From: Eggerthella timonensis
GTDB taxonomy: Bacteria; Actinomycetota; Coriobacteriia; Coriobacteriales; Eggerthellaceae
Direction of reading: 5' to 3'
DNA length: 64,000 nt
NCBI RefSeq assembly: GCF_900184265.1
Contig: NZ_FXXA01000002.1
Span: 2,714,539 to 2,778,538 of the forward strand
The notes below the pieces were generated by a model. That model worked only from the letters and a program-made list of their open reading frames with translations, did no database searches and was not told the DNA's origin. Position 1 is the first letter of the stretch. Every line of letters begins with the position of its first letter. The translations under genes were made by a program, and so were the position numbers. Of this stretch, positions 3,329 through 54,441 are shown in pieces.

Positions 3329-4608
3329 CACGAGGCCACCTCCCCCGCGCCCGCCAGCGACGCGCCCGCGTTGCCCGCCGCGTCGAGGCCCTCGGCCGCG
3401 CCGAACGAGCCGCCGCCGAGGAAGGCGTCGTCGCGATCGTGCACGAAGTCGTAGAACGCCTGCTCGATGCGCACCCAGCCGCGCCACCCGGGGTGCACGG
3501 TGTCGCAGAGGAAGTACTTCTCGTACTCGCAGGTGGAGAAGTCGGCGTAGGCCGCGCCCGCCGCGTCAGCGATGCCGCGCACGCGCTCGTAGTACGCCTG
3601 CCGCTCGTCGGCGGAGACGCCCTCGCGATCGTACCAGGCGCCGTGGACCGGCAGGATGACCACGAGCGGCTCGATCCCCGTCTCGCGGCACACCTGGAGG
3701 AAGCACGCGAGGTCGGCGTACTCCTCGTCGGCCTGCGAGAAGGTCTGGCCGCGCTCGGCGTCGTAGCCGGAGTTCTTCTGCCAGTACGCGTCGTAGACGC
3801 CGTAGTCGTTCGTGGTGCAGGCGGCGTCGCCCGAGTCGTCGGCCTCCTCGAGCAACGCGTCCCAGTCGGGCTCGCCGGTGGGCTGGCCCGCGGCGCGCAC
3901 GGCGCTCTTGAGCGGCGAGCGGCTCACCACGCTCGGCAGTTCGGAGCGCAACCGCAGGTCGTCGGCCGCTGCGCGCACCGCGTCGTTCACCGCGTCGAGC
4001 GGCGTATCGCGATGCGCGGCCGCCGTCGTCTTCGCGTCCACGCCCAGCTGCTCCACGCGCGAGCGCACGTAGGCCTTCGTCTCGTCCGAGATGCTCGGGT
4101 TGTCCGCGAACTGGCGGTACAGCGCGTAGGAGAACTTCGAGGCGAACTTGCCCTGGTCGCCGTTGCCCTTGAAGAACCACTGGGGCGACACGACGATCAT
4201 CGCCTTTCTATTCTTCACCTGGCTTCCGTACGCGCCCGCGGCGATGGCCTGCCACAGGCTCTGGTCGTACGCCTCGCCGACGTAGGTGAGGTCGACGCCC
4301 GTCACGTTCTCACCGAGCACCTGCTGCGGGCACTGCGCCACCTTGTCCTTCGAGATGTAGAATTCCGACGACCCGAACGCCAGGTAGCCGTCGTCGCTCA
4401 TGGTGGCCAGCGTGAACGCCGCGCTCTCGGACTTCGTGCCCGAGTACACGTAGTCGTACAGGCGCGCGGGGTCGTGTGCGGTCTGCGCGGGCAGCAGGGC
4501 GTTCGCGCCCGCCACCACGAGCGCCGCCGCCAGCAGCCCCGCCAGCACCGCGCGCAGGAGGCGCATGCCCGACGGAGCCGCACCCGGGGTGTCCGACCGG
4601 TTCGCCAT
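3328..4608 (-). CDS. dltD: DltD, D-alanyl transfer protein
   Basis: A 426-residue extracytoplasmic protein anchored by one N-terminal helix (residues about 17-38). It shows the DltD serine motif FGSSEF (Ser80/Ser81) and, near the C-terminus, CDTVHPGWRGW, which carries the Asp and His of the catalytic triad. DltD moves D-alanine from the DltB/DltX relay onto lipoteichoic acid. The sequence between, including the YVGEAYDQSLWQA block and WFFKGNGDQGKFASKFS, matches the family layout. It follows dltC by 6 bp. Confidence 0.93.
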   Translation of the reverse strand: MANRSDTPGAAPSGMRLLRAVLAGLLAAALVVAGANALLPAQTAHDPARLYDYVYSGTKSESAAFTLATMSDDGYLAFGSSEFYISKDKVAQCPQQVLGENVTGVDLTYVGEAYDQSLWQAIAAGAYGSQVKNRKAMIVVSPQWFFKGNGDQGKFASKFSYALYRQFADNPSISDETKAYVRSRVEQLGVDAKTTAAAHRDTPLDAVNDAVRAAADDLRLRSELPSVVSRSPLKSAVRAAGQPTGEPDWDALLEEADDSGDAACTTNDYGVYDAYWQKNSGYDAERGQTFSQADEEYADLACFLQVCRETGIEPLVVILPVHGAWYDREGVSADERQAYYERVRGIADAAGAAYADFSTCEYEKYFLCDTVHPGWRGWVRIEQAFYDFVHDRDDAFLGGGSFGAAEGLDAAGNAGASLAGAGEVAS

Positions 4609-26262: not shown

Positions 26263-26368
26263 GGGGGAGACAAAGGGAGTGAGACAGAGGGACGGGGTAA
26301 TTGTCTCATTTGGCGAGCCAAATGAGACAATTACCCCGTCCCTCTGTCTCACTCCCTTTGTCTCCCCC
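26263..26368. repeat. 106-bp near-perfect palindrome between convergent genes
   Basis: Two 52-bp arms (26263-26314 and 26317-26368) are exact reverse complements around a 2-bp centre. It fills the whole spacer between the LTA-synthase-like gene and ribF, which converge. The inner 35 bp of each arm match the palindrome at 47044-47113 with only two differences. Transcribed from either side it would form a very long hairpin and could act as a bidirectional terminator. Confidence 0.95.
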
Positions 26369-47035: not shown

Positions 47036-47043
47036 GTGAGACG

Positions 47044-47113
47044 GTGAGACAGAGGGACGGGGTAAATGTCTCATTTTGCAAAATGAGACATTTACCCCGT
47101 CCCTCTGTCTCAC
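47044..47113. repeat. 70-bp perfect palindrome between convergent genes
   Basis: Two exact 35-bp arms (47044-47078 and 47079-47113) with no loop, centred on TGCA. Its arms match the inner arms of the 26263-26368 palindrome with two differences, both kept symmetric here. It lies between the crotonase terminator and the end of the converging membrane-protein gene. Confidence 0.95.
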
Positions 47114-47120
47114 CCCCGTC

Positions 47121-50045: not shown

Positions 50046-51488
50046 TCACGCCCCGCGCGGGCTCGCGTCCCCCTCGTCGAGCGAGCTCGTCTCCAGAAGC
50101 GACTTGCCCTTCGTCTCGGGCGCCATGAGCACCGACAGCACGAGCCCGAGGATCACGAGGCCCGCGGCGACGAGCATGGTGGGCCCCACGCCGTAGGCTG
50201 CCAGGAACAGCGGCGTGCCGTACGTGGCGACGATGGTGCCGATGCGCGAGAACGCGATGGCGATGCCCACCGCCGAGGCGCGCACCTCGGTCGGGAACAG
50301 CTCGTTGGGATAGAGCCACTGCAGGATGCCCGGACCGCCGCTGAAGAACGCGTACAGGCCGAACCCGAGGATGATCACGAAGACAGGCGCGTCGGGGAAC
50401 ACGCCGAGGACGACGAGGCCCACGGCCATGAGCGCGAGCGAGCGGATGAGCAGCGGCCGCCGCCCCATCGAGTTCAGCCAGAACATGGCCGGGATGGAGC
50501 CGATGAGGAAGAACAGGCTGACCACGCTCTCGCCCAGGATGGCCTCGTGGCCCTGGCCCAGCCCGAAGGCCGTCATGATCTCGGGGCCGAACGTGTAGAT
50601 GGCGTACATGGGCACCACCTGGCACAGCGTCAGAATGCCCAGGAACACGATGCGCTTGGCGTAACCGCCGGCGAATACCTTGCGCAGGCTGGTCTTCTCG
50701 CCCGGCTCCTCCAGCTCGAGCTCGACGCCCTCGCCGAACACGCGCTTCATGACGGCGTCCGCCTCCTCGGTACGGCCCTTCTGCGCCAGCCACATGGGCG
50801 ACTCGGGGATGTCGTGGCGCCCGACCAGCAGGATGATGCAGGGAATGACGGCCGAGCCGAGCATCCATTGCCAGCCGTTGGGCACGCTGTAGAGGAAGTA
50901 CCCCACGAACGCCGCCACGGTGGCGCCGAGGTACCAGGCGGCCGACACCATGCCCATCGAGATGGAGCGGTGCTGCTTGGGCGTGAACTCGGCGATGAGC
51001 GAGGTGGCTATCGGGTAGTCGGCGCCCACGAACACGCCGATGAAGAAGCGAGCGGCCACGAGCTGAAGCGGGTCGGCGCAGAACACGCTCAGGATGGAGA
51101 ACAGCCCGATGGCAACGATGTCGACGATGAACATCTTCTTGCGCCCGATGCGGTCGGTGAGGTAGCCGCCCGCGATCGTGCCCACGAAGATGCCCAGCAG
51201 GACCGACGCGCCGATGGCCGCGCTCCAGGCCTCGTCGAGGTTGAACAGCGGCGTGATCTGCGTGAGGGCGACGCCGATGAGCGAGAGCACGTAGCCGTCG
51301 AGGAACGAGCCGCCGCTCGAGAAGAACGTGATCTTGCGGAGGAAGGGGGTCATGGCGACGTCGTCCATGGTCTTCTTGGCCGACTTCTTCACCTTGTCGA
51401 CCACGTCCTCGCCGATCTGCTTGGCGCTGTCGGCGACCTCTCCCATGGGCGGGCTCGTCACCTGGGTCATCTGTTTCACGTTGCTCAT
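50046..51488 (-). CDS. MFS transporter, sugar-porter/aromatic-acid type
   Basis: A 480-residue MFS permease with 12 helices. It carries the loop motifs GGYLTDRIGRKKMF (residues about 103-116) and PESPMWLAQKGRTEEADAVM near the centre, and a second GRRPLL loop, as in the sugar-porter and aromatic acid:H+ symporter branches. A ~45-residue charged N-terminal tail (MTQVTSPPMGEVADSAKQIG) is unusual. It is the last gene of the CoA operon and probably imports or exports a pathway acid. ATG 51488 has the best spacing to AAGGAG; 51494 and 51497 are possible. Confidence 0.87.
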   Translation of the reverse strand: MSNVKQMTQVTSPPMGEVADSAKQIGEDVVDKVKKSAKKTMDDVAMTPFLRKITFFSSGGSFLDGYVLSLIGVALTQITPLFNLDEAWSAAIGASVLLGIFVGTIAGGYLTDRIGRKKMFIVDIVAIGLFSILSVFCADPLQLVAARFFIGVFVGADYPIATSLIAEFTPKQHRSISMGMVSAAWYLGATVAAFVGYFLYSVPNGWQWMLGSAVIPCIILLVGRHDIPESPMWLAQKGRTEEADAVMKRVFGEGVELELEEPGEKTSLRKVFAGGYAKRIVFLGILTLCQVVPMYAIYTFGPEIMTAFGLGQGHEAILGESVVSLFFLIGSIPAMFWLNSMGRRPLLIRSLALMAVGLVVLGVFPDAPVFVIILGFGLYAFFSGGPGILQWLYPNELFPTEVRASAVGIAIAFSRIGTIVATYGTPLFLAAYGVGPTMLVAAGLVILGLVLSVLMAPETKGKSLLETSSLDEGDASPRGA

Positions 51489-51546
51489 GCTCATCATCTC
51501 CTTGCGTGCTTGAAAAACGGCCCCGCCCGCGTCAATCGCAGGAAGC

Positions 51547-51623
51547 GGTTCCGGGAGGGCAAGGGTCGGAACTATCCTTGGAGCGAAGCGACGGTCTTTC
51601 AGACCCTCGCCTCCCGGAACCGG
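51547..51623. ncRNA. Intercistronic hairpin with conserved loop (copy 1)
   Basis: A 13-bp outer stem (51547-51559 with 51611-51623, CGGTTCCGGGAGG) and an inner AGGGTC/GACCCT pair enclose a loop. The loop-side block 51575-51612 is nearly identical to 52614-52652 although the outer stems differ in sequence. It lies between the MaoC-type hydratase and the transporter. Confidence 0.7.
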
Positions 51624-51643
51624 CCCCCGCCCGGTTGAACCTG

Positions 51644-52516
51644 CTATTCCCACTCGCAGATGCCGAAGTTCAGGTGCGGCTTGGCACCGGTCTCGTCGGC
51701 GTCGGCGTCGACAAGCTGGAAGCGGATCTCGTTGTCGCCCACCTTCCACATGCGGGTCTCGAGCGCGGTGCCCGGCAGCACCGGCGAGGTGATGCGGGTC
51801 TTGAAGCGCGTCATGCGCTCGGGCTCGCCCGGGAAGAACGAGCTGATGATGTGGCGCATCGCGAAGCCGCCGAGGCTCACGCCGTGCGCGATGGGGCGCG
51901 CGAGGCCCGTCTGCTCGGTGTAGGCGAAGTCGATGTGCTGCTGGTGCCAGTCGCCCATGAGGCGGTAGATGAGCGGCATGTTGAGCGGCATGGTCTCGGC
52001 CACCACGGCGTCGGGCGCGCGCTCGGGCATCTCGACGATGTCCTTCGGGGGCTTGGGACCTCCCCAGCCGCCGTCGTAGATGCACACGTCCCACGTCTCG
52101 GTCTCGCACAGAAGCGTGCCGTCGGAGGAGTAGGAGCGGCCCGTCTGCTTCGACAGGCAGCCGCGGCCCTCGCCGCGGTCGTACAGCGCGTCCTGGGTGA
52201 CGAACGTCTCGATGCGGTCGTTCATCTTGAATGGCGCGTGCAGGCGGATCTCGAAGCCGTAGTGCAGCGAGCCGTCGTAGTCGTAGCCGTAGTCCAACGT
52301 GCGCGTCATCTCCTCGTGCACGGTCAGCGGCACGCCGAAGATGGGCAGCACCTTGAGCTCGGGATGGGCCGCATCCCCCTCGTTGACGTACTCGAGGTCG
52401 GTCTGGCCGTCGTAGCCGGCGTTGCAGCCGAGCGCGCAGATCTCGAGGTCCTTGAACGTGTACTCCCGTACGAACGGGCCGAACTCCTTGCCCACGATTT
52501 CAGTGCTGATTGCCAT
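51644..52516 (-). CDS. MaoC/hydratase-2-like enoyl-CoA hydratase
   Basis: A 290-residue double-hotdog protein. The second half carries the hydratase-2 active-site signature GDWHQQHID (Asp189, His194) and then GLARPIAHGVSLGGFAM. This matches (R)-specific enoyl-CoA hydratases related to MaoC and peroxisomal hydratase 2. The first half shows FGVPLTVHEE. It would add water to an enoyl-CoA made by the pathway. The start at 52516 has an AAGGAG site. It stands between the CoA ligase and the last transporter. Confidence 0.85.
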   Translation of the reverse strand: MAISTEIVGKEFGPFVREYTFKDLEICALGCNAGYDGQTDLEYVNEGDAAHPELKVLPIFGVPLTVHEEMTRTLDYGYDYDGSLHYGFEIRLHAPFKMNDRIETFVTQDALYDRGEGRGCLSKQTGRSYSSDGTLLCETETWDVCIYDGGWGGPKPPKDIVEMPERAPDAVVAETMPLNMPLIYRLMGDWHQQHIDFAYTEQTGLARPIAHGVSLGGFAMRHIISSFFPGEPERMTRFKTRITSPVLPGTALETRMWKVGDNEIRFQLVDADADETGAKPHLNFGICEWE

Positions 52517-52584
52517 GGTCGTTCTCCTTAATCTCCCAATACAAAAAGGGCTTCCGAGCAACCGAAGCCGTTCGATTGCGCGCA

Positions 52585-52665
52585 GGCGAAGGCTCAGGGC
52601 GAGGGTCTGAAAGATCCTTGGAGCTAAAGCGACGGTCTTTCGGACCCTCGCCCCGGGCCTTCGCC
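52585..52665. ncRNA. Intercistronic hairpin with conserved loop (copy 2)
   Basis: 29-bp arms (52585-52613 and 52637-52665, three mismatches, of which two are G-U-like) flank a 23-nt loop. The loop block (52614-52652) is shared with copy 1 (51575-51612) at about 36 of 39 positions. It lies in the ligase-hydratase spacer. Confidence 0.75.
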
Positions 52666-52676
52666 GCCACCGCAGG

Positions 52677-54290
52677 TCACCGCAACAGCTTCTTCTCGAT
52701 CTTCATGGAGCAGGTGCGGGGGAAGCTCTCCACGATCTCCACGAAGGAAGGCACCTTGAAGCCGGCCATGTGCTCCTCGCAAAAGGCCAGCACGTCCTCC
52801 TCGGTGAGCTTCGCGCCGGCGACCGGCAGCACGAACGCCTTGACGGCCTGGTCGCGGATCGGGTCGGGCACGCCGATGACCGCGGCTTCGGCGATGAGGG
52901 GATGGCCCGCCAGCACGTTCTCGAGCTCGGTGGTGGAGATGTTCTCCCCCGCCCGCTTGATCATGTTCACCTTGCGGTCGACGAAGAAGAACCAGCCGTC
53001 CTCGTCCACGTAGCCCTTGTCGCCGGTCTTGAGCCAGCCGTCGGCGGTGAACGTGCGCGCCGTGGCCTCCTCGTCGTTGAAGTACTCCTTCATGATGGTG
53101 CGCCCCCGCACGCCGTGCACCTGGATCTCGCCCACCTCGTGCGCCTCGGCCTCCGTGCCGTCCTCGCGCATGATGCGCACCTCGTAGCCCATGCCCGCGC
53201 GTCCCACCGACGGCCACCGGCGCGCGCCCGTGGGCGGGTCGGTGAGCACCCAGCCGATGGACTCGGTGGAGCCGTACGTGTTCATGAGCGACACGCCGAA
53301 GCGCTCCTCGAAGGCCTCCTTCTCGGCATCGGACACCGGCAGGAAGTAGAGGATCTCGCGCAGCGTGTGGTTGCGGTCGTCGGGATGGGCGGGCTGCAGC
53401 ATGAGCGTGCGCAGCATCATGGCCACGCACTGCGTGACGGTGGCCTTGAACTCGCGGATCTGCGACCAGAAGCGGCTGGCGCTGTACTTCTCCACCACGA
53501 TGAGCGTGGCGCCCACGGTGAGCACCGGCATGAGGGCCGCCAGCTGGAAGTTGGAATGGCAGGCCGGCATGGTGGTGAGCAGGCGGTCGTCGCGCGTGAG
53601 CGCCACCTCCCAGTCGCCGTACAAACCGCTGAACAGGATGTTCGCATGGGTGAGCACGACGCCCTTCGGGCGCGACGTGGTGCCGCTCGTGAAGATGATC
53701 TCGGCCGGGTCGTCCGCGCAGAGCGGGCGCTCCTCCTCGAGCTCGGCCGCGGCCTCGGCCCGCAGCCGCGAGAAGTCGCGCAGGCCTTCATAGCGTCCGA
53801 GCGCGCCGCGGGCCTCCTCGACGCCTTCCACGTTGTCGTCTTCGGTGCGGGCCACGAGCACGCCCTTGGGCAGGTACGGGCCGCTTTCGCGCACCTCGCG
53901 GTACAGGTCGAGGAACTTTGGCTCCACGAGCGCGCAGGAGGCCTCGGTGCGCTCGAGCACGAACGCGGCCTCCTCCACGAGGTACTGCTCGTTCATGGGC
54001 ACCATGACGGCGCCGATCTTCGCGAGGCCGAACAGGCACATCATGAACTCGGGGCACGTGCACAGCTGCACCGCCACGCGCTCGCCGGCCTCGACGCCCA
54101 TGGACAAGAACACGTTGGCCGTGCGGTCGATCTCCTCGTTGAACGCGCGGTACGTGTACGTGCTCGTCGAGCCCGTGCGATCGCGGAAGATGAGGAACTC
54201 GCGGTCCCCGCAGGCGGCGACGAGGCCATCCCACAGGCTTCGCACCGTTTCGTTTCCCACGATGTCGGTCAATCGTCTCACCTTTTCCAT
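52677..54290 (-). CDS. Acyl-CoA ligase (CaiC/BaiB-like, AMP-forming)
   Basis: A 537-residue ANL-family ligase. Motifs: IIFTSGTTSRPKGVVLTH near 200, MNTYGSTESIGWVL, WLKTGDKGYVDEDGWFFF and DRKVNMIKRAGENIS near 425, with the catalytic lysine near the end in RTCSMKIEKKLL. The overall pattern is like carnitine/crotonobetaine and bile-acid CoA ligases, but the substrate is unknown. The context (CoA-transferase, dehydrogenase, hydratase) says it starts the pathway by activating a carboxylic acid. ATG 54290 is used. Confidence 0.9.
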   Translation of the reverse strand: MEKVRRLTDIVGNETVRSLWDGLVAACGDREFLIFRDRTGSTSTYTYRAFNEEIDRTANVFLSMGVEAGERVAVQLCTCPEFMMCLFGLAKIGAVMVPMNEQYLVEEAAFVLERTEASCALVEPKFLDLYREVRESGPYLPKGVLVARTEDDNVEGVEEARGALGRYEGLRDFSRLRAEAAAELEEERPLCADDPAEIIFTSGTTSRPKGVVLTHANILFSGLYGDWEVALTRDDRLLTTMPACHSNFQLAALMPVLTVGATLIVVEKYSASRFWSQIREFKATVTQCVAMMLRTLMLQPAHPDDRNHTLREILYFLPVSDAEKEAFEERFGVSLMNTYGSTESIGWVLTDPPTGARRWPSVGRAGMGYEVRIMREDGTEAEAHEVGEIQVHGVRGRTIMKEYFNDEEATARTFTADGWLKTGDKGYVDEDGWFFFVDRKVNMIKRAGENISTTELENVLAGHPLIAEAAVIGVPDPIRDQAVKAFVLPVAGAKLTEEDVLAFCEEHMAGFKVPSFVEIVESFPRTCSMKIEKKLLR

Positions 54291-54308
54291 CCATCGATCC
54301 CCTGGTTA

Positions 54309-54363
54309 TCCGCACGATGCCGCCGTCGCGGGTGCGTGGCCCGCAAAGGCGGCGTCGTGCGGA
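54309..54363. terminator. Intercistronic hairpin, ligase-CoA-transferase spacer
   Basis: TCCGCACGATGCCGCC and GGCGGCGTCGTGCGGA (54309-54324 and 54348-54363) form a 16-bp stem with one G-T position. No T-run follows, so stabilisation or partial termination is likelier than a full stop. Confidence 0.65.
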
Positions 54364-54441
54364 TGCGCGGCATGCATGCGGTCCGCGCATCCGCCGAGCG
54401 GACGGCCGGGAATGCAGCTTCCCGACCGTCGGGCGAACAGG

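Follow-up and report, generated by a model that had tools for sequence, protein, structure and literature searches.

Gene-end hairpins with a near-invariant tip and copy-specific stems in Eggerthellaceae: a possible REP-like element

The window analysed here is a 64,000-nucleotide stretch of the 3.9-Mb genome (G000) of Eggerthella timonensis, a member of the Eggerthellaceae. Two hairpins in one of its operons may well be copies of a clade-specific, REP-like gene-end element of this family, with a tip read by a trans-acting factor and the antisense strand as the folded molecule, a reading that is held tentatively. On the evidence of the sequences, the element sets a near-fixed apical module (CC-loop-GG beside an A.C mismatch or a bulged A) on a stem of 20-35 bp. 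The sequence of this stem is free and its complementarity is kept, and the element directly follows a stop codon, in a single orientation. The tip is probably recognised by some factor, and the group of gene-end hairpins to which the pair belongs is apparently undescribed in the Eggerthellaceae.

Both hairpins interrupt an apparent operon on the minus strand, which codes for an esterase, an acyl-CoA dehydrogenase, a CaiB-type CoA transferase, an AMP-binding CoA ligase, a MaoC-like protein and an MFS transporter. Throughout, "sense" is the direction of the gene immediately preceding a hairpin. Hairpin 1 (51547-51622, minus strand) lies about 21 nt past the stop codon of the MaoC-like gene (51644-52516, minus strand), in the gap before the MFS transporter gene (Sugar_tr/MFS_1; 50046-51494, minus strand), and its conserved apical module at 51574-51596 (minus strand) reads GACCGTCGCTTCGCTCCAAGGAT in the sense direction. 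Hairpin 2 (52585-52665, minus strand) separates the CoA-ligase gene (52677-54290, minus strand) from the MaoC-like gene, which is therefore flanked by the pair. It begins 11 nt after the ligase stop codon, and its apical module at 52614-52637 (minus strand) has the sense sequence GACCGTCGCTTTAGCTCCAAGGAT. Upstream of its stem, an ACCTG box (52673-52677, minus strand), common to many copies of the second family described below, overlaps the ligase stop codon. The operon contains one more long inverted repeat, its third, between the CaiB-type transferase and ligase genes (54308-54364); it has 25-bp arms and a 7-nt loop, is without the conserved tip, and has a counterpart at L051:12822-12880.

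In the gene-sense direction, the predicted folding energies are -59.2 kcal/mol for hairpin 1 (z -4.7) and -67.8 kcal/mol for hairpin 2 (z -8.5), and none of 200 shuffled sequences equals the stability of either. On the plus strand, the corresponding values are z -2.5 (3 of 200 shuffles as good) and z -10.0. The outer 12-15 bp (CGGTTCCGGGAG/CTCCCGGAACCG versus GGCGAAGGCTCAGGG/CCCCGGGCCTTCGCC) are entirely unlike between the two hairpins, yet paired in each. An inner stem, of which one arm is GGTCTTTCnGACCCTCGCC, is common to both, and it pairs less well in the 51.5-kb copy because the partner arm has substitutions. The first-pass annotation had described blocks 51575-51612 and 52614-52652 as nearly identical, with flanking stems that differ and still pair. 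The blocks are indeed separated by only two substitutions and a one-base length difference, and both hairpins have the unlike, complementary flanks, with folds far above those of shuffled sequence. Its summary of a shared loop on unshared stems is right for the tip and the outer stem; the conserved block, however, consists of the apex plus one inner arm. From the two copies of the window, the argument from covariation is thin, and it becomes strong only with the relatives.

These two copies are the only members of their family (family I) in their own genome, both by BLAST search and by the exact apex pattern, which rules out a genome-wide repeat there. Family I is present in six Eggerthellaceae genomes from four genera, with one to five copies per genome; a search of 138 genomes of the family gave relatives in G075, G076, G061, G062 and G087, and a scan of 84,980 species named Paraeggerthella hongkongensis (two records), Enteroscipio rubneri and Candidatus Rubneribacter avistercoris as carriers of the apex. 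In the same scan, the pattern matched four other contigs (L062, L065, L066, L068), about as many as expected by chance, and no family-type hairpin was found there. Viral contigs held no match to the apex of either family, and plasmids only two weak partial ones. In these genomes, family I occupies the same ligase, MaoC and MFS gaps, lies behind xseA/xseB near ackA, and is found at the 3' ends of the prephenate dehydratase gene pheA, of a TorD/nitrate-reductase-delta-like gene, of FAD-dependent reductase genes and of rsfS (identified by eye). Every member whose neighbours were read follows a stop codon, in the same orientation. The apex AGACCGTCGCTTyGCTCCAAGGATCT is near-invariant across these places, and the stems of about 20-35 bp are unlike between loci. 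Two further loci (L026, L028) match in the stem only.

An alignment of ten sequences reveals double compensatory changes in 19 of the 29 stem pairs. Five covariation measures were computed, not one of which is attained by any of 500 shuffles, and slid controls score much lower. The covariance model (R1) built on these sequences finds no family I beyond the six genomes among 398 genomes of the class. Its matches to its ten building sequences hold by construction and are not independent; the independent ones, all in G061, are at G061:C1:353376 (8e-13) and G061:C1:75943 (5e-9), with weaker ones besides. The xse stems of G075 and G076, whose acetate kinases are 99% identical, differ by one compensated change of an A-T to a G-C pair (read by eye). 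Of the checks proposed in the first-pass annotation, the search of the genome gave the two copies only and the covariance model gave the independent members in G061; the copies, whose stems would have spoken against its reading had they no longer paired, do pair.

A second hairpin, built on the module CCAGTCGCTCRRACAGTCCTCGCTKCGCTGCGGAACTCGCTTGGTGG, occupies the pheA gap of the window genome and of others. The core pattern of this family II has 139 matches in 22 of the 138 genomes, of which some are three-mismatch variants that may form a subfamily; the reversed pattern has none in the same 138 genomes. Copies are few, from 1 to 23 per genome, and the four in the window genome follow pheA, scpB, a solute-binding-protein gene and one gene without a Pfam match. 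The 43-nt module is near-invariant in the 61 copies read. The stems of about 20 bp (at least 19 bp in 46 of 47 copies) are mostly copy-specific, and their arms are Watson-Crick paired at 91% of positions 6-18, versus 48% when arms are swapped between copies (500 swaps, largest 53%). Apparently orthologous copies from different genera (L194, L202, L236, L221) keep the stem with compensated changes. The copies of G078 have one common stem, as expected if they spread recently.

The inner tip has the same order in both families, stem-CC-(G)TCGCTTCGCT-SC-(AA)-GG-A-stem, flanked by AGA/TCT in family I and by AGT/ACT in family II. ACCTG, the only enriched 5' box of family II, stands just upstream of the stem in 19 of 47 family II copies (1.6 expected) and in 5 of 15 family I copies, and the same gaps are occupied by the two families in different genera. 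The families, linked by a short core only, are taken here as one putative superfamily.

The position of the hairpins relative to genes is equally regular. Genes were called from codon-position GC with a conservative coding score. Of 47 non-redundant family II copies, 32 are immediately preceded by the end of a sense gene and have no antisense gene ending beside them, 3 are immediately followed by the end of an antisense gene alone, 5 lie between two such gene ends and 7 next to none; in the 5 copies between two, the sense gene is always the nearer. Family II begins a median of about 15 nt after the stop codon (20 nt or less between stop and stem in 27 of 37 copies), in a single orientation relative to the preceding gene, and the position and orientation of family I look the same. 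Because a conserved tip, stems that changed and still pair, and a fixed place and orientation at genes come together here, a functional hairpin is well supported. The functional RNA claimed by the first-pass annotation is therefore supported in part: as a functional hairpin, through the relatives and the gene-end position, and as an RNA only as a possibility.

Selection on an mRNA hairpin should tolerate G.U pairs on the sense strand. Over 18 pairs, the sense-strand mismatches of family II are instead 61 A.C versus 7 G.U, with an A.C excess in 32 copies and a G.U excess in 3 (p = 4e-7, a value that is indicative only, as the copies are related). The A.C mismatches mostly lie within 8 pairs of the module, where few other mismatches occur. 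With RNA parameters, 46 of 47 copies fold more stably on the antisense strand; with DNA parameters, 36 of 47 do. Since the sense mismatches are A.C and not G.U, the strand kept foldable in family II appears to be the antisense one. Under selection for an mRNA hairpin, the bias should point the other way, and it does not fit a plain mRNA element. In family I, the sense mismatches (21 G.U versus 13 A.C, p = 0.23) are without significant bias, and the antisense strand folds better in 11 of 15 copies, its apex too being more stable.

Hairpins of different kinds replace each other in orthologous gaps. In 27 relatives, most of the gaps read beside the MaoC gene contain long hairpins of other kinds, the genus mates of the window genome (G052-G054) are without family I, and hairpin kinds turn over likewise in the gaps at ackA and pheA. 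Long inverted repeats are uncommon otherwise: 284 kb hold about 28 whose arms reach 18 bp or more, and almost all of these are intergenic. When sites with one arm or none were sought as a guide to the origin of the stems, the relatives were too diverged or carried other hairpins. Upstream of the MaoC gene of L078 (G068), the gap holds a near-perfect hairpin of about 60 bp built on GTGAGACAGGGGGACGGTTCTC and akin to palindromes found elsewhere in the window, an example of quick change of hairpin kind at one site. Perfect hairpins of 24-25 bp with the arm end TCGCCCGAAACGTACGGTTT and an 8-nt loop occur twice per Paraeggerthella genome region (L052:2612-2669 and 3838-3893; L057:2779-2836 and 4006-4061). 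Gaps adjoining the MaoC gene in L079, L080, L074 and L081 carry repeat copies of the form CATCCTGAGCG..CGAAGGATC, two of them inverted in L074, and CATCCTGAGCG..AAGCG..AAGGATC recurs in several gaps of relatives (L079, L080, L074). Like family I, this repeat is a gap hairpin in the same operon, but its stem is short and it lacks the 20-bp variable stem. Its short form, which we take to be CATCCTGAGCGAAGCGAAGGATC, would have the loop GAGCGAAGCGA in common with the antisense family I apex; the gap copies are longer. A literature search by sequence found no paper on the repeat, and literature searches, sequence-based ones included, found nothing relevant on the sequences of families I and II in the papers covered.

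How these hairpins act can be proposed by weighing the possible explanations against each other. In the REP-like reading, the apical module would be the recognition site of a putative trans-acting factor, and the stem would merely present it. Judging from the mismatch bias of family II, the relevant folded molecule would be the gene's antisense strand, most simply as an extruded or single-stranded DNA hairpin, in the manner of REP or attC sites. Such elements may have spread to gene ends and been exchanged between them. Even so, the sense transcript would form a highly stable hairpin behind the stop codon, which may, as a second role, protect or separate the upstream message. This reading accommodates the stem covariation of both families, the near-invariant apex at unrelated loci, the dispersed and patchy distribution with its turnover of hairpin kinds and the recent burst of a shared stem in G078, the gene-end place and single orientation, and the antisense bias in mismatches and stability. 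Its binding factor and transposase remain putative, however, and whole-element copy-and-paste alone leaves unexplained why the stems share nothing between loci. The strand bias is non-significant in family I, and families I and II are joined by a short core only. Moreover, a role in mRNA would explain at least as well why the distance to the stop codon is constant and the orientation single. That role, the reading of the first-pass annotation and the main rival, is a serious possibility if a lesser one. The sense transcript would form the hairpin behind the stop codon, with the conserved tip as the binding site of an RNase or RNA-binding protein. The operon message would thereby be stabilised or processed, giving unequal yields of ligase, MaoC-like protein and transporter. 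The fixed place about 15 nt past stop codons in one orientation, the intercistronic location in operons, the strong covariation and the very stable sense fold all suit it, but the excess of A.C over G.U and the better antisense fold of family II do not, and no Rfam family corresponds to it. It is because of this strand bias that the DNA-level, REP-like reading is put slightly ahead.

The same bias would be accounted for by an antisense RNA, transcribed from the opposite strand and folded as the hairpin, with the 3' end of the upstream gene as its target. Many copies nevertheless lie in co-directional gaps, a crude scan called no antisense promoter-like site near the window pair, and the fixed place after stop codons is left unexplained, which makes this quite unlikely. 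Template switching is known to correct quasipalindromes in other bacteria, and long palindromes without function, their arms kept alike by template switching during replication, would explain why the arms are often perfect. They would not explain the near-invariant apex at unrelated loci, the orientation at gene ends, the ACCTG box or the A.C/G.U skew, and are unlikely as well. Least probable is an intrinsic terminator or an integron attC site: the gene-end position and the hairpin shape would agree with either, and attC sites likewise prefer the antisense (bottom) strand (PMC2727003), yet a terminator scan calls none at either hairpin, the attC box pair does not flank the copies, and the tip is variable in attC and conserved here. 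A broader view, which is possible though less likely than not, is that of an undescribed superfamily of Eggerthellaceae gene-end hairpins, distinct from REP, attC, terminators and known RNA families, in which a dedicated putative factor would read the invariant tip on copy-specific stems and act on the antisense strand, as DNA or as antisense RNA.

A near-identical tip at unrelated loci, on stems alike in little but complementarity, shows directly what selection keeps. Its conservation predicts a specific apex-binding factor, for which there are up to two dozen copies per genome to look in. If the antisense preference holds, gut bacteria related to Eggerthella, whose small regulatory and mobile elements seem little described, would have a gene-end hairpin maintained by antisense RNA or at the level of DNA. 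Other elements were also noticed. Two perfect palindromes of the window (26263-26368 and 47043-47114, with 52- and 35/36-bp arms 0-2 nt apart) have AGACAGAGGGACGGGGTAAwTGTCTCATTT in both arms of both. Similar long palindromes (ACAGGGGGACGGGG...) occur in gaps of G068 and G066 relatives, and these palindromes may represent a miniature mobile element. Some 20 Eggerthellaceae genomes, the window genome (L121) among them, have a conserved element TTTTCGGYGAGCGGCGCGCCGYTKGCCGA upstream of ackA, at a distance of about 80-100 nt, with CCTAAAAT or CCTACAAT next to it on its downstream side; it looks like an operator or promoter region.

Several known systems could be compared directly. No intrinsic terminator is called at either hairpin on either strand, and no T run follows the stems. 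Rfam gives no match in the window at the curated gathering score, and sub-threshold hits are chance matches of microRNA type. The tip's CAAGGAU had suggested CsrA, whose family (PF02599) is absent from all nine genomes searched, with control genomes positive. As in structured cis-regulatory RNAs, the stems covary by compensation; the sense-strand folding signal (G.U versus A.C) is non-significant in family I and reversed in family II. REP elements of the GTAG and CGTC superfamilies are units of 20-40 bp with stems of 6-13 bp and a GTAG or CGTC tag (PMC3733652, which does not mention Eggerthella). Both families resemble them as short, dispersed, transcribable hairpins, mostly downstream of coding regions and patchy between related species (PMC3733652). 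In place of an unpaired tag on a short constant stem, they have only the enriched ACCTG, a constant apex and long (20-35 bp), copy-specific stems, in few copies per genome (1-23) and in a fixed orientation to the gene. The likeness to attC sites lies in the place after stop codons in fixed orientation, a conserved structure on variable sequence, extrahelical bases, and an antisense (bottom) strand that is folded and recognised (PMC2727003); preferential bottom-strand folding is found here in family II only (46 of 47 copies, against 11 of 15 in family I). No copy, among 47 of family II and 15 of family I, is flanked by both the RYYYAAC and the GTTRRRY box of attC, which rejects identity with attC. 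Where attC sites stand in cassette arrays, these copies are dispersed in conserved operons. In attC, the outer boxes are conserved and the tip varies (PMC2727003); these hairpins carry a conserved tip on a variable outer stem.
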